DNA from: an uncultured Bacteroidia bacterium
Lineage (GTDB): Bacteria > Bacteroidota > Bacteroidia > Bacteroidales > UBA932
DNA length: 54,026 nucleotides
Assembly (NCBI GenBank): GCA_902774145.1
Contig: CACYHC010000012.1
Coordinates: 1-54,026, forward strand
Reading direction: 5' to 3'
A program made the translations under genes and the position numbers. Below are positions 2,876 through 48,351 of this stretch, piece by piece (the stretch's first letter is position 1; the number at the start of each line of letters is the position of its first letter). The notes under the pieces are model-generated. The model made no database searches, had not been told where the DNA came from, and worked only from the letters and a program-made list of their open reading frames with translations.

Positions 2876-4078
2876 AAACAGGAATTCATATTTGCCAAGT
2901 TTTAAGAATAACGGGAAGCTTAAGCTTCTGATTATCGTCGGCACACGTCCGGAAATCATCCGCCTGGCGGCAGTTATCAATAAATGTCGTGAATATTTCG
3001 ATTGTCTGCTGGCGCACACCGGGCAGAACTATGACTACAACCTTAACGGGGTGTTTTTCAAGGACTTGAAGCTCGCTGATCCCGACGTGTATATGGAGAC
3101 GGTGGGCTCGGACCTTGGCGAGACGATGGGCAACATCATTGCCAAGAGCTACCAGCTGATGGTTGAAGTTCAGCCCGACGCTGTACTGGTATTAGGAGAT
3201 ACAAACTCGTGTTTGAGTGTTATCGGCGCCAAACGCCTGCACATCCCCATTTTCCACATGGAGGCGGGCAACCGCTGCAAGGACGAGTGCCTGCCTGAGG
3301 AGACGAACCGCCGCATCGTGGACATCATCTCCGATGTGAATATGGCCTACAGCGAGCACGCGCGCCGCTATCTGGCTGACACCGGTCTGCCGAAGGAGCG
3401 CACGTATGTGACTGGCTCCCCGATGGCGGAGGTGCTCCACAACAATCTGGCTGAGATCAAGGCTTCTGATATTCATACCCGCCTGGGCCTGGAGAAAGGG
3501 AAGTATATTTTGCTTTCGGCTCATCGCGAGGAGAACATCGATACCGAGAAGAACTTCCTGTCGCTGTTCAACGCCATCAACAAGATGGCCGAGAAGTACG
3601 ATATGCCCATCCTCTACAGCTGCCACCCGCGCAGCCGCAAGCGCCTGGAGCAGGCGGCTTGTCATCCTGAGCCAGAGCGAAGGATCTGCCTCGACAAGCG
3701 CGTCATCCAGCACGAGCCCCTCGGCTTCCATGACTACAACTGCTTGCAGATGAACGCCTTTCGCGTGGTGTCCGACTCCGGTACCCTGCCCGAAGAGAGA
3801 GCAGCTTCTTTACCAGCATCGGCCACCCCTTCCCGGCCGTCTGCATCCGCACCTCCACCGAGCGTCCGGAGGCCCTGGACAAGGGCTGCTTCGTGCTCAG
3901 CGGCATCGACACCAAGGGCCTGCTGCAAAGCGTCGACGTGGCCGTGGAGCTCATCCGCGACGGCAACCCCGGCATCCCCGTGCCCGACTACGTGGACGAG
4001 AACGTCTCTACCAAGGTCGTCCGCATCATCCAGAGCTACGTGGGCGTGGTTAACAAGATGGTCTGGAGGAAGTTTTGA
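2868..4078 (+). pseudogene. fnlC: UDP-N-acetylglucosamine 2-epimerase family (FnlC/WbjD/WecB-like), frameshifted
   Basis: FnlC is the last enzyme to UDP-L-FucNAc (C2 epimerisation). The N-terminal part reads KLLIIVGTRPEIIRLAAV, with HTGQNYDY, HMEAGNR, LSAHREENID and SCHPRSRKR, all typical of the non-hydrolysing 2-epimerase fold. At 3794-3801 an (AG)4 run puts the gene out of frame: after GTLPEE the frame drifts, while the expected continuation SSFFTSIGHPFPAVCIRTS is found if two bases are removed, and the C-terminal part (LSGIDTKGLL to MVWRKF) is intact to 4078. Repaired length would be about 402 residues. There is also an in-frame repeat insertion at about 3659-3687. The start is TTG at 2868. 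It could be a real pseudogene, a slippage switch or a sequence error. Confidence 0.82.
3659..3687 (+). repeat. Short dispersed-repeat-like insertion inside fnlC (encodes CHPEPERRI)
   Basis: The segment carries TGTCATCCTGAG and GCGAAGGATCT, the two halves of a short repeat that I recognise from intergenic regions of many bacterial genomes. Here it is in frame, giving residues ACHPEPERRIC between RKRLEQ and LDKRVIQHEPLG. Family members have only four or five residues in that place, so about 8-9 codons are extra. No second copy was noticed in this window. Confidence 0.6.
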
Positions 4079-4095
4079 TTGTTAATCAGAATGAG

Positions 4096-4566
4096 ATGAA
4101 TAAGTCTAAGCCCCAAGCGGTATTGCTGCTGTTATTATTCACTATTGCCGTATCTTCTTGTGATGTCGGTATACACTTGGATGGGGCTAACAGTTTTGCG
4201 GCCATCATTGCTGTAATAGGTGAATATTTATTGGCAATAGTATCAACTATTTTAGTCTTTGTTCTTCATCTATCCCGTCCGTTTTCTATCTCTTTAGTAC
4301 TGCTGAGTATCTTAGGAATGACAAATGCTGTAGATTTGCCAGTATCTCCTTACATTGTATTGACAATTGGCTTAGTGTTGCTCTTCTCTTTTGCAGTCCC
4401 CCTAAAAGCATATAAACCAAAGGTGATAATCGACAAGAATGTGAAGAAGGTTTTCGAGAAGGATACGGAAGAAGAAAAACAACAAATAGGAGTCAAGGGA
4501 ATAGCGATTGAGATAGGTGTGGGAATCTTATTGTTATTTGTTGAGTATTTGTTCTTTGCGAGATAG
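4096..4566 (+). CDS. Small membrane protein of unknown function
   Basis: The 156-residue product has about four hydrophobic segments: one at the N-terminus that ends in AVSSC (lipobox-like or signal anchor), two in the middle (AIIAVIGEYLLAIVSTILVFVL; ISLVLLSILGM) and one at the very C-terminus. A charged cytoplasmic stretch with KKVFEKDTEEEKQQ lies before the last. I chose the ATG at 4096; a TTG at 4075 overlapping the fnlC stop would add seven residues. The DNA is distinctly AT-rich next to the flanking polysaccharide genes, which suggests separate origin. No family recognised. Confidence 0.6.
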   Translation: MNKSKPQAVLLLLLFTIAVSSCDVGIHLDGANSFAAIIAVIGEYLLAIVSTILVFVLHLSRPFSISLVLLSILGMTNAVDLPVSPYIVLTIGLVLLFSFAVPLKAYKPKVIIDKNVKKVFEKDTEEEKQQIGVKGIAIEIGVGILLLFVEYLFFAR

Positions 4567-4607
4567 GAACTGAAATCAGGGTTGTCAAGATAGAATAGTT
4601 TAGTCGT

Positions 4608-4838
4608 ATGACGCAAGACGAGTTGTGGCTAAAGAAATATCAGGAAGTGAAGGCCTTCATCGAGACCAATCGTCGCAATCCTTCCCGCCACAACCCCGAA
4701 GAACGTTTCAAGTACTTCAACTGGCTCAAGCATAACAAAAAACTCCTCAACGCCGGCGAGATGAAAGAAGACAGAGTGGCCCTGTTCCAAAATCTGCTGG
4801 AGAAGGGGAAGTATAGGAGAGTGAATCAGTATAAATGA
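4608..4838 (+). CDS. Helicase-associated (HA)-domain-like small protein
   Basis: The 76-residue basic protein begins MTQDELWLKKYQEV and has the Trp-rich helical pattern W-x(3)-Y ... F-x(2)-N-x(2)-NPS ... YFNWLKHNKKLLNAGEM ... R-x(2)-LF-x(2)-LLE, which resembles the helicase-associated domain. I recall similar stand-alone ORFs at the 3' ends of Bacteroidales polysaccharide loci. Role unknown; nucleic-acid binding is an inference from the domain. It is the last gene before the operon terminator at 4931. Confidence 0.6.
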   Translation: MTQDELWLKKYQEVKAFIETNRRNPSRHNPEERFKYFNWLKHNKKLLNAGEMKEDRVALFQNLLEKGKYRRVNQYK

Positions 4839-4879
4839 TGTAATTATATGTGGAAACGCTTTAAACTTAATCTAAAGCA

Positions 4880-4913
4880 CATTGCTGTCCACAACTTTTA
4901 GTGGACAGCAATG
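4880..4913. repeat. Perfect 13-bp inverted repeat with 8-bp spacer
   Basis: The left arm CATTGCTGTCCAC (4880-4892) is the exact reverse complement of the right arm (4901-4913), around the spacer AACTTTTA. No T-run follows on either strand, so it is not an ordinary intrinsic terminator. It lies 17 bases before the terminator block that forms the left flank of the ATPase-protease island. A regulator operator, an mRNA 3'-end stabilising hairpin, or a core-type recombinase site all fit. Confidence 0.6.
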
Positions 4914-4929
4914 ACTGTCTGAGTTGAAA

Positions 4930-4996
4930 GGGCGTCCTTCGGGACGCCTTTTTCGTGTCTAGGCAAAACAAAACCTCCGGCATTGTCGCGACGGCG
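4930..4996 (+). repeat. 67-bp direct repeat, left copy, flanking the ATPase-subtilase island
   Basis: This block matches 8565-8631 at 63 of 67 positions (differences in the GTGTCTAGG/GTATCCGGG stretch and one in CATTG/CATCG). It contains the plus-strand terminator and the left half of a minus-strand terminator (CCTCCG at 4974-4979). In this copy the pairing arm CGGAGG is missing, because identity stops at 4996. Confidence 0.85.
4931..4953 (+). terminator. Intrinsic terminator of the polysaccharide operon
   Basis: The 7-bp stem GGCGTCC/GGACGCC closes on the stable TTCG tetraloop and is followed by TTTTT. It ends transcription coming from the genes before 4838. Confidence 0.9.
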
Positions 4997-5006
4997 AAGT
5001 CAGAGG

Positions 5007-5090
5007 AAATAGAACATTATTAGCCAATTAACGAACAAAATTCTGGTTAAATCGCACAAAATTTGCATAAAATCGAACATAATCCGTTTT
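5007..5090 (+). repeat. Four 21-bp direct repeats (operator or iteron-like array) upstream of ietA
   Basis: Units start at 5007, 5028, 5049 and 5070, exactly 21 bases apart. The shared core is AAATCGAACA(A/T)AAT: unit 4 AAATCGAACATAAT, unit 3 AAATCGCACAAAAT, unit 2 TTAACGAACAAAAT, unit 1 AAATAGAACATTAT. The remaining seven bases of each unit are not conserved. The array fills the space from just after the left 67-bp repeat to the -7 box at 5098, so the last unit covers the -33 region. A period of two helical turns puts all cores on one face of the DNA. Confidence 0.75.
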
Positions 5091-5097
5091 TTATGGT

Positions 5098-5105
5098 TAT
5101 ATTTG
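5098..5105 (+). promoter_or_regulatory. -7 promoter element for ietAS
   Basis: TATATTTG matches the Bacteroidetes TAnnTTTG -7 consensus. No TTTG is found 19-21 bases upstream; the fourth 21-bp repeat is there instead, which suggests control by a bound regulator. Confidence 0.6.
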
Positions 5106-5169
5106 CCTCTGCTAATAATCATGACAAGACATGCAAACCGAAGTGCTTAGAATCATAGAAGGAGGCTTG

Positions 5170-6240
5170 ATGAGTGACAAGCGTAAGATCCTTGCGTATT
5201 CCGCGCGTTTGGCTGACCGGCTCGAACGTGAGGGTGATATCGCGTTGTCCAAATGCATCAGGCAAAAAATCGAAGAGGGTATGCCGCAGAATGCGGCTAT
5301 TGCTGATGCCATGCGTGTCCTCCCTCTTGATGCTGACAGTCGTTTGCAGATTGTGGAGGTTATTCCAACGGATGAGGAGCGCCATAAAGTGGTACTTACG
5401 CCTGAGGTAGACAAGAAGGTTTCAGAGTTTATAGAAATTGTCAATCATCGTTCAGAGTTGGAATTGGCGGGCGTAGAGATTAAGAAGACTTTGCTACTTT
5501 ACGGCCGTCCTGGCTGTGGAAAGACAAGCGTGGCCCATTATATCTCTGAGAAAACCGGCTTGCCTTTAATCGTCGCACGCCTGGATGGAATCGTGTCTTC
5601 GTTGTTGGGTAGTACGGCTAAGAATCTGAGGAGGATTTTTGATTATGCCAGAAGCGTTCCTTGTATTCTGTTTTTGGACGAGTTTGATGCTATAGCAAAA
5701 GCAAGGGATGATCAGCATGAATTGGGAGAGTTGAAGCGAGTGATTAACAGCCTTCTTCAGAACATTGACTCTATGAGTCCGGAAACCGTTATGATTGCTG
5801 CAACAAACCATGCGGAACTTTTGGATAATGCTATATGGCGCCGTTTTGTTCAGACTGTCGAAATAGGCCTTCCTGGCAAGAACGAGATTATGGAGATGTT
5901 AGACATTTTCTCAGAACCGTTTTCATCGGAAGTGTCGACAGACCTGTCGAAGAAGTCGGCCTTCGCTAAATTAGCTGAGGGTATTTCGCCGTCTGACTTG
6001 AAGACAATTTTTGATAGGGCGAAAGTGAAATGTGTCCTTGGTAACAGCAAAAAAATTTCGATGGGTGACATTTTGGATGGAGTGTATGAGGTGAAAGTGC
6101 AGGACAAGTCGGAACGTGCTTACGTTCATTTCTTGAACGAGTATGGAATGTCACAAATTGCTATCAATAAGAGTACGGGAATCGGCTTGCGTAAGATAAA
6201 GACTTACCTGGCCACTAATGAAATGGAGGAAGCAAAATGA
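5170..6240 (+). CDS. ietA: AAA+ ATPase, IetA-like, of an ATPase-subtilase defence pair
   Basis: The 356-residue protein has a classical AAA+ core: Walker A GRPGCGKT at 112-119, Walker B ILFLDE ending at D170/E171, sensor-1 Asn in ATNH (N213) and paired arginine fingers R224/R225 in WRRF. The pore-side stretch and second region resemble FtsH/Cdc48-type unfoldases. The C-terminus (MSQIAINKSTGIGLRKIKTYL region, about 325-350) looks like a helix-turn-helix. The start at 5170 is preferred for its strong ribosome binding site (GGAGG 5161-5165); an ATG at 5131 would add 13 residues. Its last four bases overlap ietS. An AAA ATPase next to an S8 protease is the IetAS arrangement, known from Agrobacterium plasmids and reported as anti-phage; the match is by architecture, not by search. 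Confidence 0.85.
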   Translation: MSDKRKILAYSARLADRLEREGDIALSKCIRQKIEEGMPQNAAIADAMRVLPLDADSRLQIVEVIPTDEERHKVVLTPEVDKKVSEFIEIVNHRSELELAGVEIKKTLLLYGRPGCGKTSVAHYISEKTGLPLIVARLDGIVSSLLGSTAKNLRRIFDYARSVPCILFLDEFDAIAKARDDQHELGELKRVINSLLQNIDSMSPETVMIAATNHAELLDNAIWRRFVQTVEIGLPGKNEIMEMLDIFSEPFSSEVSTDLSKKSAFAKLAEGISPSDLKTIFDRAKVKCVLGNSKKISMGDILDGVYEVKVQDKSERAYVHFLNEYGMSQIAINKSTGIGLRKIKTYLATNEMEEAK

Positions 6241-8558
6241 ATCAAAGAAATTTACCGATCCAGTTGGTTGAGACTCGGGGTGAACGAGACCAGTTCTTGA
6301 AAGAAGGCATGGGCGATAACTCTTTGCCTAACTGGTCTACTCAGGAATCAATGGCGGAACACGTCAGGATAATGACAGACACATTTGCTGCCGCAGAGCG
6401 TATTTTCGATGCTCGTGAGGAGGAGGGTTTGCCTATCCTTATGGTCGCGACCTTGGATGATAATGCGGTTCGTCGGAAAGCTTTCCGCGCCAATGCACGC
6501 TCGATCTTTGACAGCCGGAACAAGCGTAACATTTTGGGAAAAGACTCGCATAAGGGTCTTCTGGTCAAAGTCGACAATAAAGCGGATGTCCAGTTGATGA
6601 AGAGTAACATCAACATCGCCGGGAACATCAGTAAAGATAAACAATGTGGTGTCGCGGTTATTGATGACCTGCAACTTTTTCATCCCTATGTTGAAGATGA
6701 TTTGGTTGGCAAGCTCTTGAAGGTTAAACTGGTTGATTATCAGGATCAGCGACTTAATGACTTTGCGCGGCAAAGCATGGCTCGGTTTGCGGAACAGAAT
6801 AATGTAACCGTTCGCGCCCTGGACTATTCTCCCGGTTTACATCTCTATGCGGTCGAGGCTGCTACTCAGGAAGCTGTTCATGCGTTAGCCACGATGGATG
6901 CTGTGATATCCGTGAAGAAGATGCCATACTTTGAACTGTCGGTTTCTCCTGAGCCCTTTAATACGAATCTGGATGTTAGTGAGCCGGTGGAGGGGGAGGA
7001 TTATCCGGTAGTCGGGCTTTTGGACTCGGGCGTCGAGCCGATTCCGCATCTGGCTCCATGGCTGGATGCAGAAGAGAATGTGGCTGGCTTGGAAGATGAA
7101 GATATCCGTCGCTTACATGGTACTTCAGTTTCTGGCATTATTTGCTATGGCGATATTCTTGAAGGGGAGCGGCTTACTGGAACTTCGCCAATGCGAATCC
7201 GCTCGTGTATAGTTAATACTGATGACCGTGTTATCAGGGTTTCGGAAGAAGAAATGGTCGAGCATATAAAGACCGCCATCGTCAATAATCCTGATGTCCA
7301 TGTCTGGAATCTTTCTCAAGGTTCATCGAATGAGATTGAGAAAGATGAGTTCTCTGATTTTGCCGTTGCTTTGGATAGAATGCAAAAAGAGCACGGTGTC
7401 CTCATTTGCAAGTCGGCTGGCAACATTGCTCCTGCAGATCCAGGCAAGAATAGGATTACACAGGGTGCAGATTCGGTATTGGCTTTGACTGTCGGCTCGT
7501 ACGCTCACAAGTATGCGGATGAAGGTGATGCTCCTGTCGGTGCCCGCTCTCCTTTCTCTCGTATCGGACCTGGCCCTGCAGGAATCATTAAGCCTGAGCT
7601 CGTCCATGCTGGCGGTAATCGGCACGTTGGTGTGTATTCCTTTTCACATTCTGGTTATCAAGGCAATATTTATTCAGGGACGAGTTACTCAACTCCACGC
7701 GTTTCTGCCTTGGCCGCGAGTCTGGAGCATAGACTTAACCGCCCCTTCGACCCTCTCCTGATAAAAGCACTCTTAATCCATAGTGCAAGTTATCCTCTTC
7801 TGCCGGCAAATGCAGAAAAGTCTTTATTCGAGGAGTTGGGCTTTGGACGTCCCGCCTTGCTCGATGAGATTCTCTTCAATGATCCGAACGAGTTCACTAT
7901 GGTCTGGCATCCGGTCTTCCAGGATGGCGTAGATCTGCAGATTCAGGATATCCCTTTCCCTTCATCGCTGGTTGAGGATGATCATTTCTCGGGAGAGGTC
8001 ACAGTTACCCTCGTTACTTCTCCAGTTTTCAGAAGCGTAGAAAAGAGCGAGTATTGTCAAAGTGATGTTAAGGTTGCATTAACTTCTTATAATGGCATTC
8101 GTTTCTGCCCCCTGGGTGCTGCCGGTACTCCGCCTACGTACAAGAATTCAGAAAGATTGATTGAGCCTGAGAATGTTTTGACAAAGGGTCGTTTCAGCAC
8201 TCCGTCATTCAGGAGCATGAATCCTGCAGAGAGGACAATTATTTGTGGGGACGAATACAGTCCAGTCAAAAAGTATCATGTAGATTTTCAAAAGATGAAA
8301 CCGGCGGAACGAGCTACATGTCTTGGAGCTGGCCGTAAATGGTGTTTGAGCATGGAGGCGACATATAAGGATGCTACGGCAACAGATAAGAGTTCAGGAG
8401 TGAACGTAGGGAACGTTGAAGCCGTTGTTGTCATAACAATACGGGACCCTCGTGGTCAAGGTGTCTTATACGACGAGTGCATACGTGCTTTGGAAGATCA
8501 GAACTTTGTCCACTCTGATATCGCTGTAAGACAGAATATCAACGTAATCAATGAGTAG
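6237..8558 (+). CDS. ietS: S8 family subtilisin-like serine protease, IetS-like
   Basis: The 773-residue protein has no signal peptide, so it acts in the cytoplasm, unusual for a subtilase. An N-terminal region of about 250 residues of unknown fold precedes the catalytic domain. The triad is complete: D263 in GLLDSGVEP, H294 in HGTSVSG, S483 in SGTSYSTPRVSA, with the oxyanion Asn N396 in KSAGN. About 230 residues follow, probably beta-rich. It is translationally coupled to the ATPase (ATGA), which suggests that the ATPase feeds substrates to, or gates, the protease. The stop is followed within ten bases by a terminator. The GC content is lower than that of the neighbours. Confidence 0.88.
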   Translation: MNQRNLPIQLVETRGERDQFLKEGMGDNSLPNWSTQESMAEHVRIMTDTFAAAERIFDAREEEGLPILMVATLDDNAVRRKAFRANARSIFDSRNKRNILGKDSHKGLLVKVDNKADVQLMKSNINIAGNISKDKQCGVAVIDDLQLFHPYVEDDLVGKLLKVKLVDYQDQRLNDFARQSMARFAEQNNVTVRALDYSPGLHLYAVEAATQEAVHALATMDAVISVKKMPYFELSVSPEPFNTNLDVSEPVEGEDYPVVGLLDSGVEPIPHLAPWLDAEENVAGLEDEDIRRLHGTSVSGIICYGDILEGERLTGTSPMRIRSCIVNTDDRVIRVSEEEMVEHIKTAIVNNPDVHVWNLSQGSSNEIEKDEFSDFAVALDRMQKEHGVLICKSAGNIAPADPGKNRITQGADSVLALTVGSYAHKYADEGDAPVGARSPFSRIGPGPAGIIKPELVHAGGNRHVGVYSFSHSGYQGNIYSGTSYSTPRVSALAASLEHRLNRPFDPLLIKALLIHSASYPLLPANAEKSLFEELGFGRPALLDEILFNDPNEFTMVWHPVFQDGVDLQIQDIPFPSSLVEDDHFSGEVTVTLVTSPVFRSVEKSEYCQSDVKVALTSYNGIRFCPLGAAGTPPTYKNSERLIEPENVLTKGRFSTPSFRSMNPAERTIICGDEYSPVKKYHVDFQKMKPAERATCLGAGRKWCLSMEATYKDATATDKSSGVNVGNVEAVVVITIRDPRGQGVLYDECIRALEDQNFVHSDIAVRQNINVINE

Positions 8559-8564
8559 CAACAG

Positions 8565-8631
8565 GGGCGTCCTTCGGGACGCCTTTTTCGTATCCGGGCA
8601 AAACAAAACCTCCGGCATCGTCGCGACGGCG
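8565..8631 (+). repeat. 67-bp direct repeat, right copy, flanking the ATPase-subtilase island
   Basis: It matches 4930-4996 at 63 of 67 positions. Here the sequence goes on into GGAGGTT, completing the minus-strand terminator that is broken in the left copy, so this is probably the ancestral copy. Confidence 0.85.
8566..8588 (+). terminator. Intrinsic terminator of ietAS
   Basis: This is the same GGCGTCC-TTCG-GGACGCC-TTTTT hairpin as at 4931, here placed 7 bases after the ietS stop. Confidence 0.9.
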
Positions 8632-8635
8632 GAGG
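8599..8635 (-). terminator. Minus-strand intrinsic terminator
   Basis: CCTCCG (8609-8614) pairs with CGGAGG (8630-8635) and an inner CGTCG/CGACG pair extends the stem. On the minus strand the hairpin is followed by TTTTGTTTT. It would serve the minus-strand gene whose remnant ends at 8693. Confidence 0.75.
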
Positions 8636-8810: not shown

Positions 8811-9001
8811 GGAGCGTTTCCGCTGAAGACCAGCGCCGATGCGCGCGGCTCCTTCACCGAGCTGCTGAAAACCGTCAGCGGCGGGCAGTTCAGCGTGAAC
8901 ATCTCCAGGCCCGGCGCCGTCAAAGGCCAGCACTGGCACAACACCAAATGGGAATTCTTTATCGTGGTGAGCGCCCGGACACGTATTTTGAGCCCGTCTA
9001 A
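8811..9001 (+). pseudogene. Fragment of a second fnlB/capF (C-terminal cupin) with an internal deletion
   Basis: FPLKTSADARGSFTELLKTV and SGGQFSVNISRPGAVKGQ, then HWHNTKWEFFIVVS, match the cupin domain of fnlB (from about 2337). After GTGAGCG (8973) the sequence jumps to the equivalent of the last codons (RPDTYFEPV stop), so about 170 bases are missing and the frame changes. No 5' part and no start remain. From 8925 to 8973 it is identical to 2443-2491 over 49 bases, although the preceding part is clearly diverged. Its stop overlaps the stop of ugd on the other strand. Confidence 0.85.
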
Positions 9002-46345: not shown

Positions 46346-48351
46346 AAAATTTTGTAATTTCTGCATTTGCCCTCTTGGCTATGGCATCCTGCACCTCTGT
46401 GAATCCGTTTTTTGAAACCTGGGACACCCCTTACGGGATTCCCCCCTATGACCAGATCAAGGTCTCCGATTATCTGCCCGCCCTGAAAGAAGGGATGAAG
46501 CAGCAAAACGCCAAAATCGACGAGATTCTTTCCTGCTGCGAGGCGCCGACCTTCGACAACACCGTGGTCCCGCTGGAAAACAGCGACGACCTGCTCTCCA
46601 AGGTCGTGGGCGTGCTCTTCAATGTCAGTGAGACCGACCGCAGCGACGCGCTCGACGCCGTGGTGGAGAAGGCCCTGCCGCTGTTGAGCGCCCATGCGGA
46701 CGCCATTTCCTTCAACAAGCAGCTCTATGCACGTGTCGCTTCCGTGATGGAGCGGGAATATGAATACCTGGACCGCGAGCAGCAGATGGTGCTCAAGAAG
46801 CTCTGCGAAGGTTTCGTGCGCGAAGGTGTGAACCTCCCGGAGGACATTCAGGCCGAGCTGAAGGACATCAATGCGCAGATGGCGCTGCTGACCCAGAAAA
46901 TCGGCAACAACATCCTCGCCGAGTCCAATGCCTTCAAGGAGGAATTCGGCTTCAGCGTCAGTGCCTATCCGGACGAGATGACGACGACCCAGGACCGCGA
47001 ACTGCGCCGCCGCTACAATGAATTCTATACTTCGCGCGGCCACCGCGGAAATGAAAACGACAATACGAGACTGATCCTCGAGGTAATGCGCCTGCGCATC
47101 CGTCGCGCGCAACTGCTGGGGTATGCGACGCCTGCCGCCTACGAACTCGCCGACAAGATGGCGGGTACCCCCGAGACCGTCGATGCCTTCCTCGCGCCGA
47201 TCATGGAGGCCGCGCTGCGGTCCGCCGGCCGCGAACTGAAGGATATGCAGGCGGTGATGGACGCCGACATCCAGGCCGGCCTGCTGCCGGAAGGAAGCAC
47301 CATACAGCCCTGGGACTGGTGGTACTATGCGGAGAAGGTGCGCAAGGCGCGCTATGATCTGGACGAGGAGCAGACCAAGCCTTACTTCCAGATAGACAGC
47401 GTGGTGAAGGGAATGTTCCTCGCCGCGAACAAGCTCTATGGCGTGAAGGCGGAAGGACTCTCCGGCGTGCCGGTGTACAATCCCGAGGTGACGACCTACA
47501 AGATTATCGACTCCGACGGCAGCCTGGCGGGCATCTTTACCACCGACTACTTCCCGCGCGCCAGCAAGCGCGGCGGCGCTTGGATGAACAATGTGCGGGA
47601 CCAGTATGTCACGCCCGACGGCGAGGACGTGCGCCCCATCATCGTGAACGTGGGCAACCTGCACGAAAACCTCTCCGTGGATGAGGTCCAGACCGTCTTC
47701 CACGAATTCGGCCACGCCCTGCACGGACTGCTCACCCGCTGCCACTACGCGTCGGTGAGCGGCACCTCCGTCAAGCGCGACTATGTGGAAATGCTCTCGC
47801 AGTTCAACGAGAACTGGGCCTTCCAGCCCGAACTGCTCGCCGCGTACGCCCGCAACGCCGAAGGGGAAGTGATTCCCGCGGAACTGGTGGCGCGCATCAA
47901 CAATGCGCTGAAGTTCAACCAGGGCTTTATGACCACCGAACTCTGCGCAGCGTCCATCCTGGACATGAAATGGCACTCCCTGACGGAGATTCCCGACGAG
48001 GCCTTCTCCGACCCCGCCGCCTGGATCGACGCCTTCGAAAAGAAAGTTTGTGACGAGATGGGCCTGATCCCTGAGATTGCGCCCCGCTATCGCACGACCT
48101 ACTTCAACCACATCTTCTCCAGCGGCTACAACGCCGGCTACTACGGCTACCTCTGGGCGGAGGTGCTGGACAAGGACGCGTTCAGCTTCTTTACGGCGCG
48201 TCCCGACGTATTTGACAAAGAACTGGCCACCCGCTTCAAGGAGACCTTCCTCCAGAAGGGCGGGGCCGAAGAACCGATGGTGCTCTACGAATCCTTTGCC
48301 GGCCGCAAGCCGGACCAGGGAGCTTTTCTTAGGGCGAGAGGCTTAGAATGA
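46342..48351 (+). CDS. dcp: M3 family zinc peptidase (peptidyl-dipeptidase Dcp-like), lipoprotein
   Basis: The 669-residue peptidase has a lipobox (MASC, C17) and a long alpha-helical N-terminal part. The zinc site is [10 protein letters not shown] with H454, E455 and H458; the third ligand is in the helix with [45 protein letters not shown] is the substrate-binding Gly/Tyr loop. Dcp takes dipeptides off peptide C-termini. The lipid anchor suggests a periplasmic place. One base separates it from gpmI. Confidence 0.9.

Follow-up and report, generated by a model that had tools for sequence, protein, structure and literature searches.

Promoter-phased direct repeats upstream of ietAS as a probable operator for the Cdc48-like ATPase IetA

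Introduction

Why would a putative anti-phage or toxin-antitoxin operon encoding an AAA ATPase and a subtilase carry, across its own promoter, four direct repeats set exactly 21 bp apart, and which protein would read them? The question is raised by a 54,026-nucleotide stretch of DNA from an uncultured member of the Bacteroidia (hereafter the window, meaning the whole stretch that was analyzed), in which the two genes match the PADLOC models of the IetAS system, or IteAS at NCBI, over nearly their full length. IetAS is named in many defense surveys, and in the literature searched, which stops short of the 2009 pTiC58 paper, we found nothing on its control and no description of such an array or of IetA autoregulation. 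Neither an operator array nor DNA binding by the ATPase features in the accessible parts of PMC8562856, PMC5006074, PMC3339403, PMC3874152, PMC4231840 and PMC10954446. An earlier, sequence-only reading of the window had held that no such array is known for an ATPase-subtilase pair and, with the 2009 paper lying outside the search, our survey agrees. As to nomenclature, the pair is named IteA/IteS elsewhere at NCBI, and the record of the Pseudomonas phage PfAC08 (L092) has the names swapped, with the ATPase called IetS and the peptidase IetA.

Results

The ietAS cassette

Both genes lie on the forward strand. The first, ietA (positions 5131 to 6240), encodes a 369-residue AAA ATPase (Pfam AAA) that matches the PADLOC IetA model PDLC02196 over residues 1 to 363 (E 7.6e-127), and the next gene in the operon, ietS (6237 to 8558), which overlaps it by 4 bp, encodes a 773-residue subtilase (Peptidase_S8) that matches the IetS model PDLC02201 over residues 1 to 771 (E 2.9e-229). 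Gene order and 4-bp overlap are as in the ATPase-subtilase pairs described in the accessible part of PMC3339403. Array and gene pair are together bracketed by a forward-strand 70-bp direct repeat: the array starts 8 bp past the end of the left copy (4930 to 4999), and the right copy (8565 to 8634), 93% identical to the left one, starts 7 bp past the ietS stop, while the genome yielded no third copy. Because both lie between these repeats, we treat the array and ietAS as one unit. The repeat pair suggests insertion or duplication of the cassette, and recombination between its copies is a possible route of cassette loss; in Mycoplasma, direct repeats around such a pair are presented as recombination scars in the accessible part of PMC8562856.

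Short inverted repeats are found inside the 70-bp repeat (at 4930 to 4999 and 8565 to 8634), and a terminator scan of positions 4850 to 5200 returned no site. Just to the right of the cassette, positions 8900 to 9001 repeat the C-terminal coding part (2400 to 2703) of a polysaccharide-type gene at 1417 to 2703, with which they share two peptides, LAQHQMGILYRGERP in one frame and, at the end, DTYFEPV, as if this stretch were the relic of a rearranged duplication.

Four imperfect cores at an exact 21-bp spacing

The array comprises four forward-strand units, at 5007 to 5027 (AAATAGAACATTATTAGCCAA), 5028 to 5048 (TTAACGAACAAAATTCTGGTT), 5049 to 5069 (AAATCGCACAAAATTTGCATA) and 5070 to 5090 (AAATCGAACATAATCCGTTTT), located between the left flank of the cassette and the octamer TATATTTG at 5098 to 5105, which was read in the sequence and which we take to be a Bacteroidota-type -7 box by the consensus TAnnTTTG. 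The conserved C of the successive units falls at 5015, 5036, 5057 and 5078, that is, at -83, -62, -41 and -20 from this box. The sequence-only reading had described four cores of one common form, and here the spacing, exactly 21 bp throughout the cores at 5007 to 5083, is as it said, whereas the form was slightly generous: the cores are imperfect, with 2 (5007), 3 (5028), 1 (5049) and 0 (5070) mismatches to AAATCGAACA(A/T)AAT. It had further placed the array before a -7 box and over the -33 site; the box is there, and the last core, in the fourth unit, does cover the expected -33 position, but no TTTG is seen at that position under the core.

Among lags 12 to 40, lag 21 gave the best self-match of the array (score 35.3 vs. 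12.8 for the next best), and when the 150 bp preceding ietA were dinucleotide-shuffled 5000 times, a single shuffle reached this score. Taken alone, the window array is moderately unusual, yet not extreme: 12 of the best 14 among 1078 window tiles lie elsewhere, with similar or higher scores and, as expected of coding sequence, all at lags divisible by 3, the top-scoring tile (46501 to 46700, lag 21) falling inside a 669-codon ORF. Core pairs 21 bp apart occur window-wide only at the array, where three overlapping matches with at most 3 mismatches were found against 0.38 expected, and in the 2.23-Mb genome (96.9% complete) matches with at most 2 mismatches are confined to the array; matches with 3 mismatches elsewhere in that genome number 18, vs. 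4 for a reversed control pattern.

Several other assignments were tried and rejected. The array is not a tandem repeat in the usual sense, Tandem Repeats Finder not reporting it; an RNA element was discarded with positions 4800 to 5200 giving no Rfam match at gathering score; of a sigma-70-type promoter over the array nothing was seen, the two pairs reported both lying downstream of it; and a host regulon was dismissed, the genome having no further close copies of the cores.

The array in other ietA loci

Homologs were drawn from a scan of genome contigs (45 loci, 43 used, the partial loci L074 and L076 being set aside), genome searches, plasmids and phages. Loci L003 and L006, on contigs that equal those of L032 and L038 in length and place, were counted once, the FtsH-like L013 to L031 were not used, and the distant IetA-like L008 to L012 were kept outside the resulting 70. 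Close homologs turned up in 2 of 395 (phylum) and 2 of 393 (order) in the genome searches, the window's genome being one of the two each time.

Close homologs without the repeats, or without any period, were what the sequence-only reading had named as speaking against it; instead, the best self-match lag (12 to 40) was 20 or 21 in 51 of 70 ietA upstream regions (21 in 33 and 20 in 18), though the array of L033, a 75% identical homolog, is irregular (p 0.199). The proportion was 41 of 58 after clustering at 90% amino acid identity, and 26 of 419 for control windows, which were 150-bp intergenic stretches from the same loci and gave about the expectation for 2 of 29 lags. At p ≤ 0.01, with 200 shuffles per ietA region and 100 per control, 27 of 70 upstream regions were called, all at lag 20 or 21; among the 419 controls 16 were called, of which 4 had one of these two lags. 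L007 and L082 were on the wrong strand in these p-value calls and on the right strand in the lag count. Over an initial 51 loci, z averaged 5.15 at lag 21 and 2.62 at lag 20, all other lags from 14 to 32 staying within 0.5 of zero. Most Bacteroidota arrays repeat every 21 bp, and Lachnospiraceae-type and several gammaproteobacterial ones every 20 bp, a split that possibly arises from IetA assembly or from promoter geometry. Viral contigs (80 loci) served as a fresh test, with a best lag of 20 or 21 in 30 of 54 clusters, or 29 of 52 once the two with a match of at least 90% to the first set were removed; among viral clusters less than 45% identical to the first set, the array was found in 0 of 6.

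The array goes along with a C-terminal helix-turn-helix (HTH) in IetA, the presence of which was judged by eye on alignments. In HTH-bearing loci the best lag was 20 or 21 in 49 of 66 and another lag in 17; in the eight HTH-less loci (L089, L090, L099 and L101 to L105, of which L089 and L105 are nearly identical at the C-terminus and L104 has no adjoining ietS) it was 20 or 21 in one, and two (L090 and L101) gave p ≤ 0.05 at those lags. The HTH-less loci bear on a further suggestion of the sequence-only reading, namely that the iteron look of the array recalls the plasmid-stability origin of IetAS. Direct repeats of 20 to 21 bp do resemble iterons, and IetAS entered the literature as a plasmid-stability system, as cited in the accessible parts of PMC8562856, PMC5006074 and PMC3339403, so the array could be a remnant of iterons, partition sites or other plasmid-maintenance sites. 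Yet the plasmid-borne pTi-type ietAS (L089 and L105, the two such loci fetched, assumed to be closest to the founding system) show no HTH and, by the lag test (p20/21 of 0.63 and 0.87), no array, and the repeats sit within core promoters at a fixed phase (see below). A plasmid relic is thereby largely refuted, and we consider it hardly credible.

Some loci deserve mention in their own right. In L008 and L009, from the family of the window's genome, the best lags are 20 and 21 (p 0.03 and 0.003) and the C-termini carry other HTH-like helices; these two, outside the main counts, are those of the five distant loci L008 to L012 for which a start with enough upstream sequence was located. L073 (Providencia, about 4001 to 4930) has a frameshifted or split ietA, and the 20-bp array upstream of it persists. 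L045, a Bacteroidetes MAG, carries at about 1617 to 1766, roughly 1 kb upstream of ietA, a different 21-bp tandem repeat that is strongly conserved (its score is 135.5 and its unit approximately GGATATGCGCTTGCGAGTA plus 2). Finally, in L104 (a Bosea plasmid) what comes after the HTH-less IetA-like ATPase gene is not ietS but, on the opposite strand, an AbiEii-type toxin gene and a DUF6088 gene; genes like these also adjoin ietAS in L101, and a DUF6088 gene does so in L089.

Core motif and promoter phase

Registering the called arrays (51 loci, some of them poorly registered) revealed a common center, [A/T]C[G/A], followed by A/T-rich positions and spanning Bacteroidota, Bacillota and Proteobacteria, with the C as the best conserved core position (about 0.71 in the smoothed matrix). 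The core otherwise comes in clade-specific versions: TCGAACA(A/T)AAT in the window's clade, ATTACGTTTTT in the Flavobacterium type, AGAAACG in Hymenobacter, AGCACGAAAT in L038, ATGCTCA in the Lachnospiraceae type and TTCA in Gammaproteobacteria.

A TAnnTTTG box lies 20 to 70 bp before ietA in 19 of the 21 non-redundant Bacteroidota loci with a called array, and in 16 of these 19 the core C stands, modulo 21, at -9 to -11 from the box; the other three (the window, L032 and L034) have it one turn off, at -19/-20. With a 10.5-bp period the phase R was 0.93 (decoy octamers, 0.35), and with a 21-bp period it was 0.68 (decoys, 0.20); 20000 random box placements reached the real values 0 and 3 times, respectively. 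Clostridia-type loci with a called array (L057 to L062, L066 and L067, several of them closely related; L064 has no called array) were analyzed with the best -35/-10 pair of the region, and the core C falls exactly 11 bp before the -10 hexamer in 8 of 8, inside the 16-17-bp spacer. The core is at -10 in L079 (Enterococcus), with a poorer promoter match, and between -9 and -12, counted from the best -10 match, in 5 of 8 Proteobacteria loci (L071 and L075 being near-duplicates), a placement not found in L072, L073 and L094. This helical phasing of array with promoter fits the earlier suggestion that a two-turn spacing would present all sites on one face of the DNA. An autoregulated operon would carry repeated sites within its own core promoter, as ietAS does; from their fixed helical face in core promoters we infer a role in transcriptional control and, from their place within the polymerase footprint, one in repression.

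Phased A/T tracts that merely bend promoter DNA, with no specific protein involved, would also account for the helical phase of the array and for the A/T-rich flanks of its cores. The period, however, is two turns and not one, conservation is highest at a C, and the clade-specific cores track the HTH (see below), all of which makes bending a very unlikely account of the array. A second alternative keeps IetA as the bound protein and makes it an activator or scaffold, aiding polymerase or storing IetA without blocking transcription, and conservation, phase and correlation with the HTH fit it equally well. A protein bound in the -35/-10 or -33/-7 spacer usually blocks polymerase, and a core lies inside that spacer in most loci with a recognized promoter, which argues against such a role. 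The related pair sgiAT gave no killing from its own promoter, and its authors proposed a need for positive activation (PMC5006074, accessible part); as a precedent this is weakened in that SgiA is, in the same source, 50% identical to pTi IetA, a type that lacks the HTH here. We hold activation or storage to be unlikely, if worth keeping in mind, and favor repression of ietAS by array-bound IetA.

The C-terminal domain of IetA and covariation with the core

The solved structures nearest to the window IetA are those of p97/Cdc48. Its structural model features an N-terminal helical part, the AAA module and three C-terminal helices (residues 328 to 337, 342 to 349 and 353 to 368), and we propose the predicted HTH that these form (residues 328 to 368, positions 6112 to 6234, forward strand) as the reader of the array. 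Block pLDDT values are 86 to 91 for residues 321 to 360 and 56 for 361 to 369, and when the last 52 residues are folded alone they rise to 95 to 97 in residues 11 to 40 of the piece. PDB matches of the domain folded alone are mostly DNA-binding HTHs (DosR, TrpR, IstA, resolvase, KorB), with one MYST acetyltransferase among the best 50, at weak Foldseek E-values for the 52-residue domain (best 0.95, none below 0.001). Pfam HTH families appear below their cut-offs in 3 of 6 homologous C-termini, and in the window's own domain none appears even below cut-off. A DNA-binding domain in the IetA C-terminus is thus predicted by the models.

Were the HTH the reader, changes in it should be matched by changes in the core. 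In a partial Mantel test (n = 35), the motif correlated with the HTH given the AAA, N-terminal and lid parts (r 0.39, p 0.0005), the other parts yielding -0.07 (N-terminal), -0.12 (AAA) and 0.12 (lid, p 0.024). The loci tested are the 51 with p20/21 ≤ 0.05 minus 16, which were judged ill-registered (L084, L086, L087, L090), near-duplicate (L082rc, L037, L051, L047, L048, L065, L098, L067, L071, L075, L096) or frameshifted in ietA (L073). The viral set (n = 20) gave 0.205 for the HTH (p 0.0075), 0.11 for the N-terminal part (p 0.09), 0.03 for AAA and -0.05 for the lid; it consists of 26 loci with p ≤ 0.05, from which seven were removed by hand (L120, L127, L128, L130, L132, L162 and L169, for poor register, L132 having no visible HTH) and to which L110 (p 0.169) was added. 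With IetS included (n = 44, omitting L142, which equals L094, nine loci without usable IetS and one with a short IetS), the values were 0.25 for the HTH (p 0.0007), -0.06 for IetS and 0.12 for the lid (p 0.027), so that a small partial correlation remains for the lid, which is next to the HTH.

At the level of single residues, of the 21 loci with Asn at HTH position 20, in the recognition helix, 19 have more CG than CA units, and of the 14 without it none does (12 have more CA, 2 are tied). Related loci are non-independent, with the Mantel tests controlling for kinship only in part, and on a tree built without the HTH about three independent pairs differ at position 20, two of them concordant and one neutral. 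Applied to the 13 loci with a recognizable residue among 27 viral loci examined, the rule of Asn for CG and otherwise CA was right in 9, wrong in 3 (L110, L114, L130) and tied in 1. The core sequence thus appears to change with the IetA HTH, and not with IetS or with the ATPase and N-terminal parts of IetA, on evidence that we grade as moderate because independent changes are few.

The same covariation bears on the identity of the reader. Many regulators bind direct repeats at promoters and binding by IetA is deduced indirectly, hence a host regulator might occupy the array instead; but ietA is accompanied by the array across Bacteroidota, Bacillota, Proteobacteria and prophage contigs, the core follows the IetA HTH and the window's genome has no second close copy, which renders a host regulator distinctly improbable. 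Self-regulation by IetA through its C-terminal HTH, already proposed in the earlier reading, agrees with the array before most HTH-bearing ietA genes, with its promoter phase and with the core-HTH covariation, as far as sequence comparison can tell.

Discussion

The array is probably an operator through which IetA represses ietAS, its own operon, with the Cdc48-like ATPase itself as the likely reader. p97/Cdc48-like ATPases form hexamers, and in an IetA oligomer several HTHs could read successive [A/T]C[G/A] cores spaced two turns apart along the same face of the DNA. DNA-bound IetA would then cover the core promoter and repress both ietA and ietS, and when free IetA drops or is engaged elsewhere, for instance in infection or by IetS, the array would be vacated and the operon induced; IetA binding, repression by binding and what relieves it are all steps that we infer. 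A bolder version would make the array the resting place of the defense machine, where the Cdc48-like ATPase on its own promoter holds IetS off, the DNA-bound state is lost in infection, the operon is induced and IetA and IetS are freed, such that promoter occupancy acts as the sensor; we regard this as an improbable extension.

Type II toxin-antitoxin operons are autorepressed by their antitoxin, and here, too, the first gene, as antitoxin, would bind the operon's own promoter; it differs in that this antitoxin would be an AAA ATPase with a C-terminal HTH and the operator a series of four to five sites. DnaA and NtrC-type proteins likewise join an AAA module to an HTH with several target sites; unlike them, IetA is by sequence nearest to p97/Cdc48 among solved structures, and we know of no specific DNA binding by AAA proteins of this protein-unfoldase type. 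Within defense, a close parallel is RptR, the repressor of a defense island and product of the first gene of its operon, which represses its own promoter via three direct repeats overlapping it (PMC12255303, accessible part), much as the window array consists of several direct repeats in the own promoter of a putative defense operon. RptR is, according to the same part of that source, a small dimer dedicated to repression whose repeats are 9 bp long and contain 6-bp palindromes, whereas the likely reader in the window is the ATPase itself and its sites are non-palindromic and 20 to 21 bp apart. ietAS is probably a variant of the autoregulated toxin-antitoxin or defense operon.

For a system so often named in surveys, an array that is conserved, in phase with the promoter and predicted to be read by one of the system's own proteins offers a cheap and direct test of ietAS regulation, and the correspondence between HTH and core amounts to a code that is testable by domain swap. 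The proposed reading of the array also suggests why the ATPase has a C-terminal HTH. If true, it would make a p97/Cdc48-like ATPase a sequence-specific DNA-binding regulator, which would be unusual.
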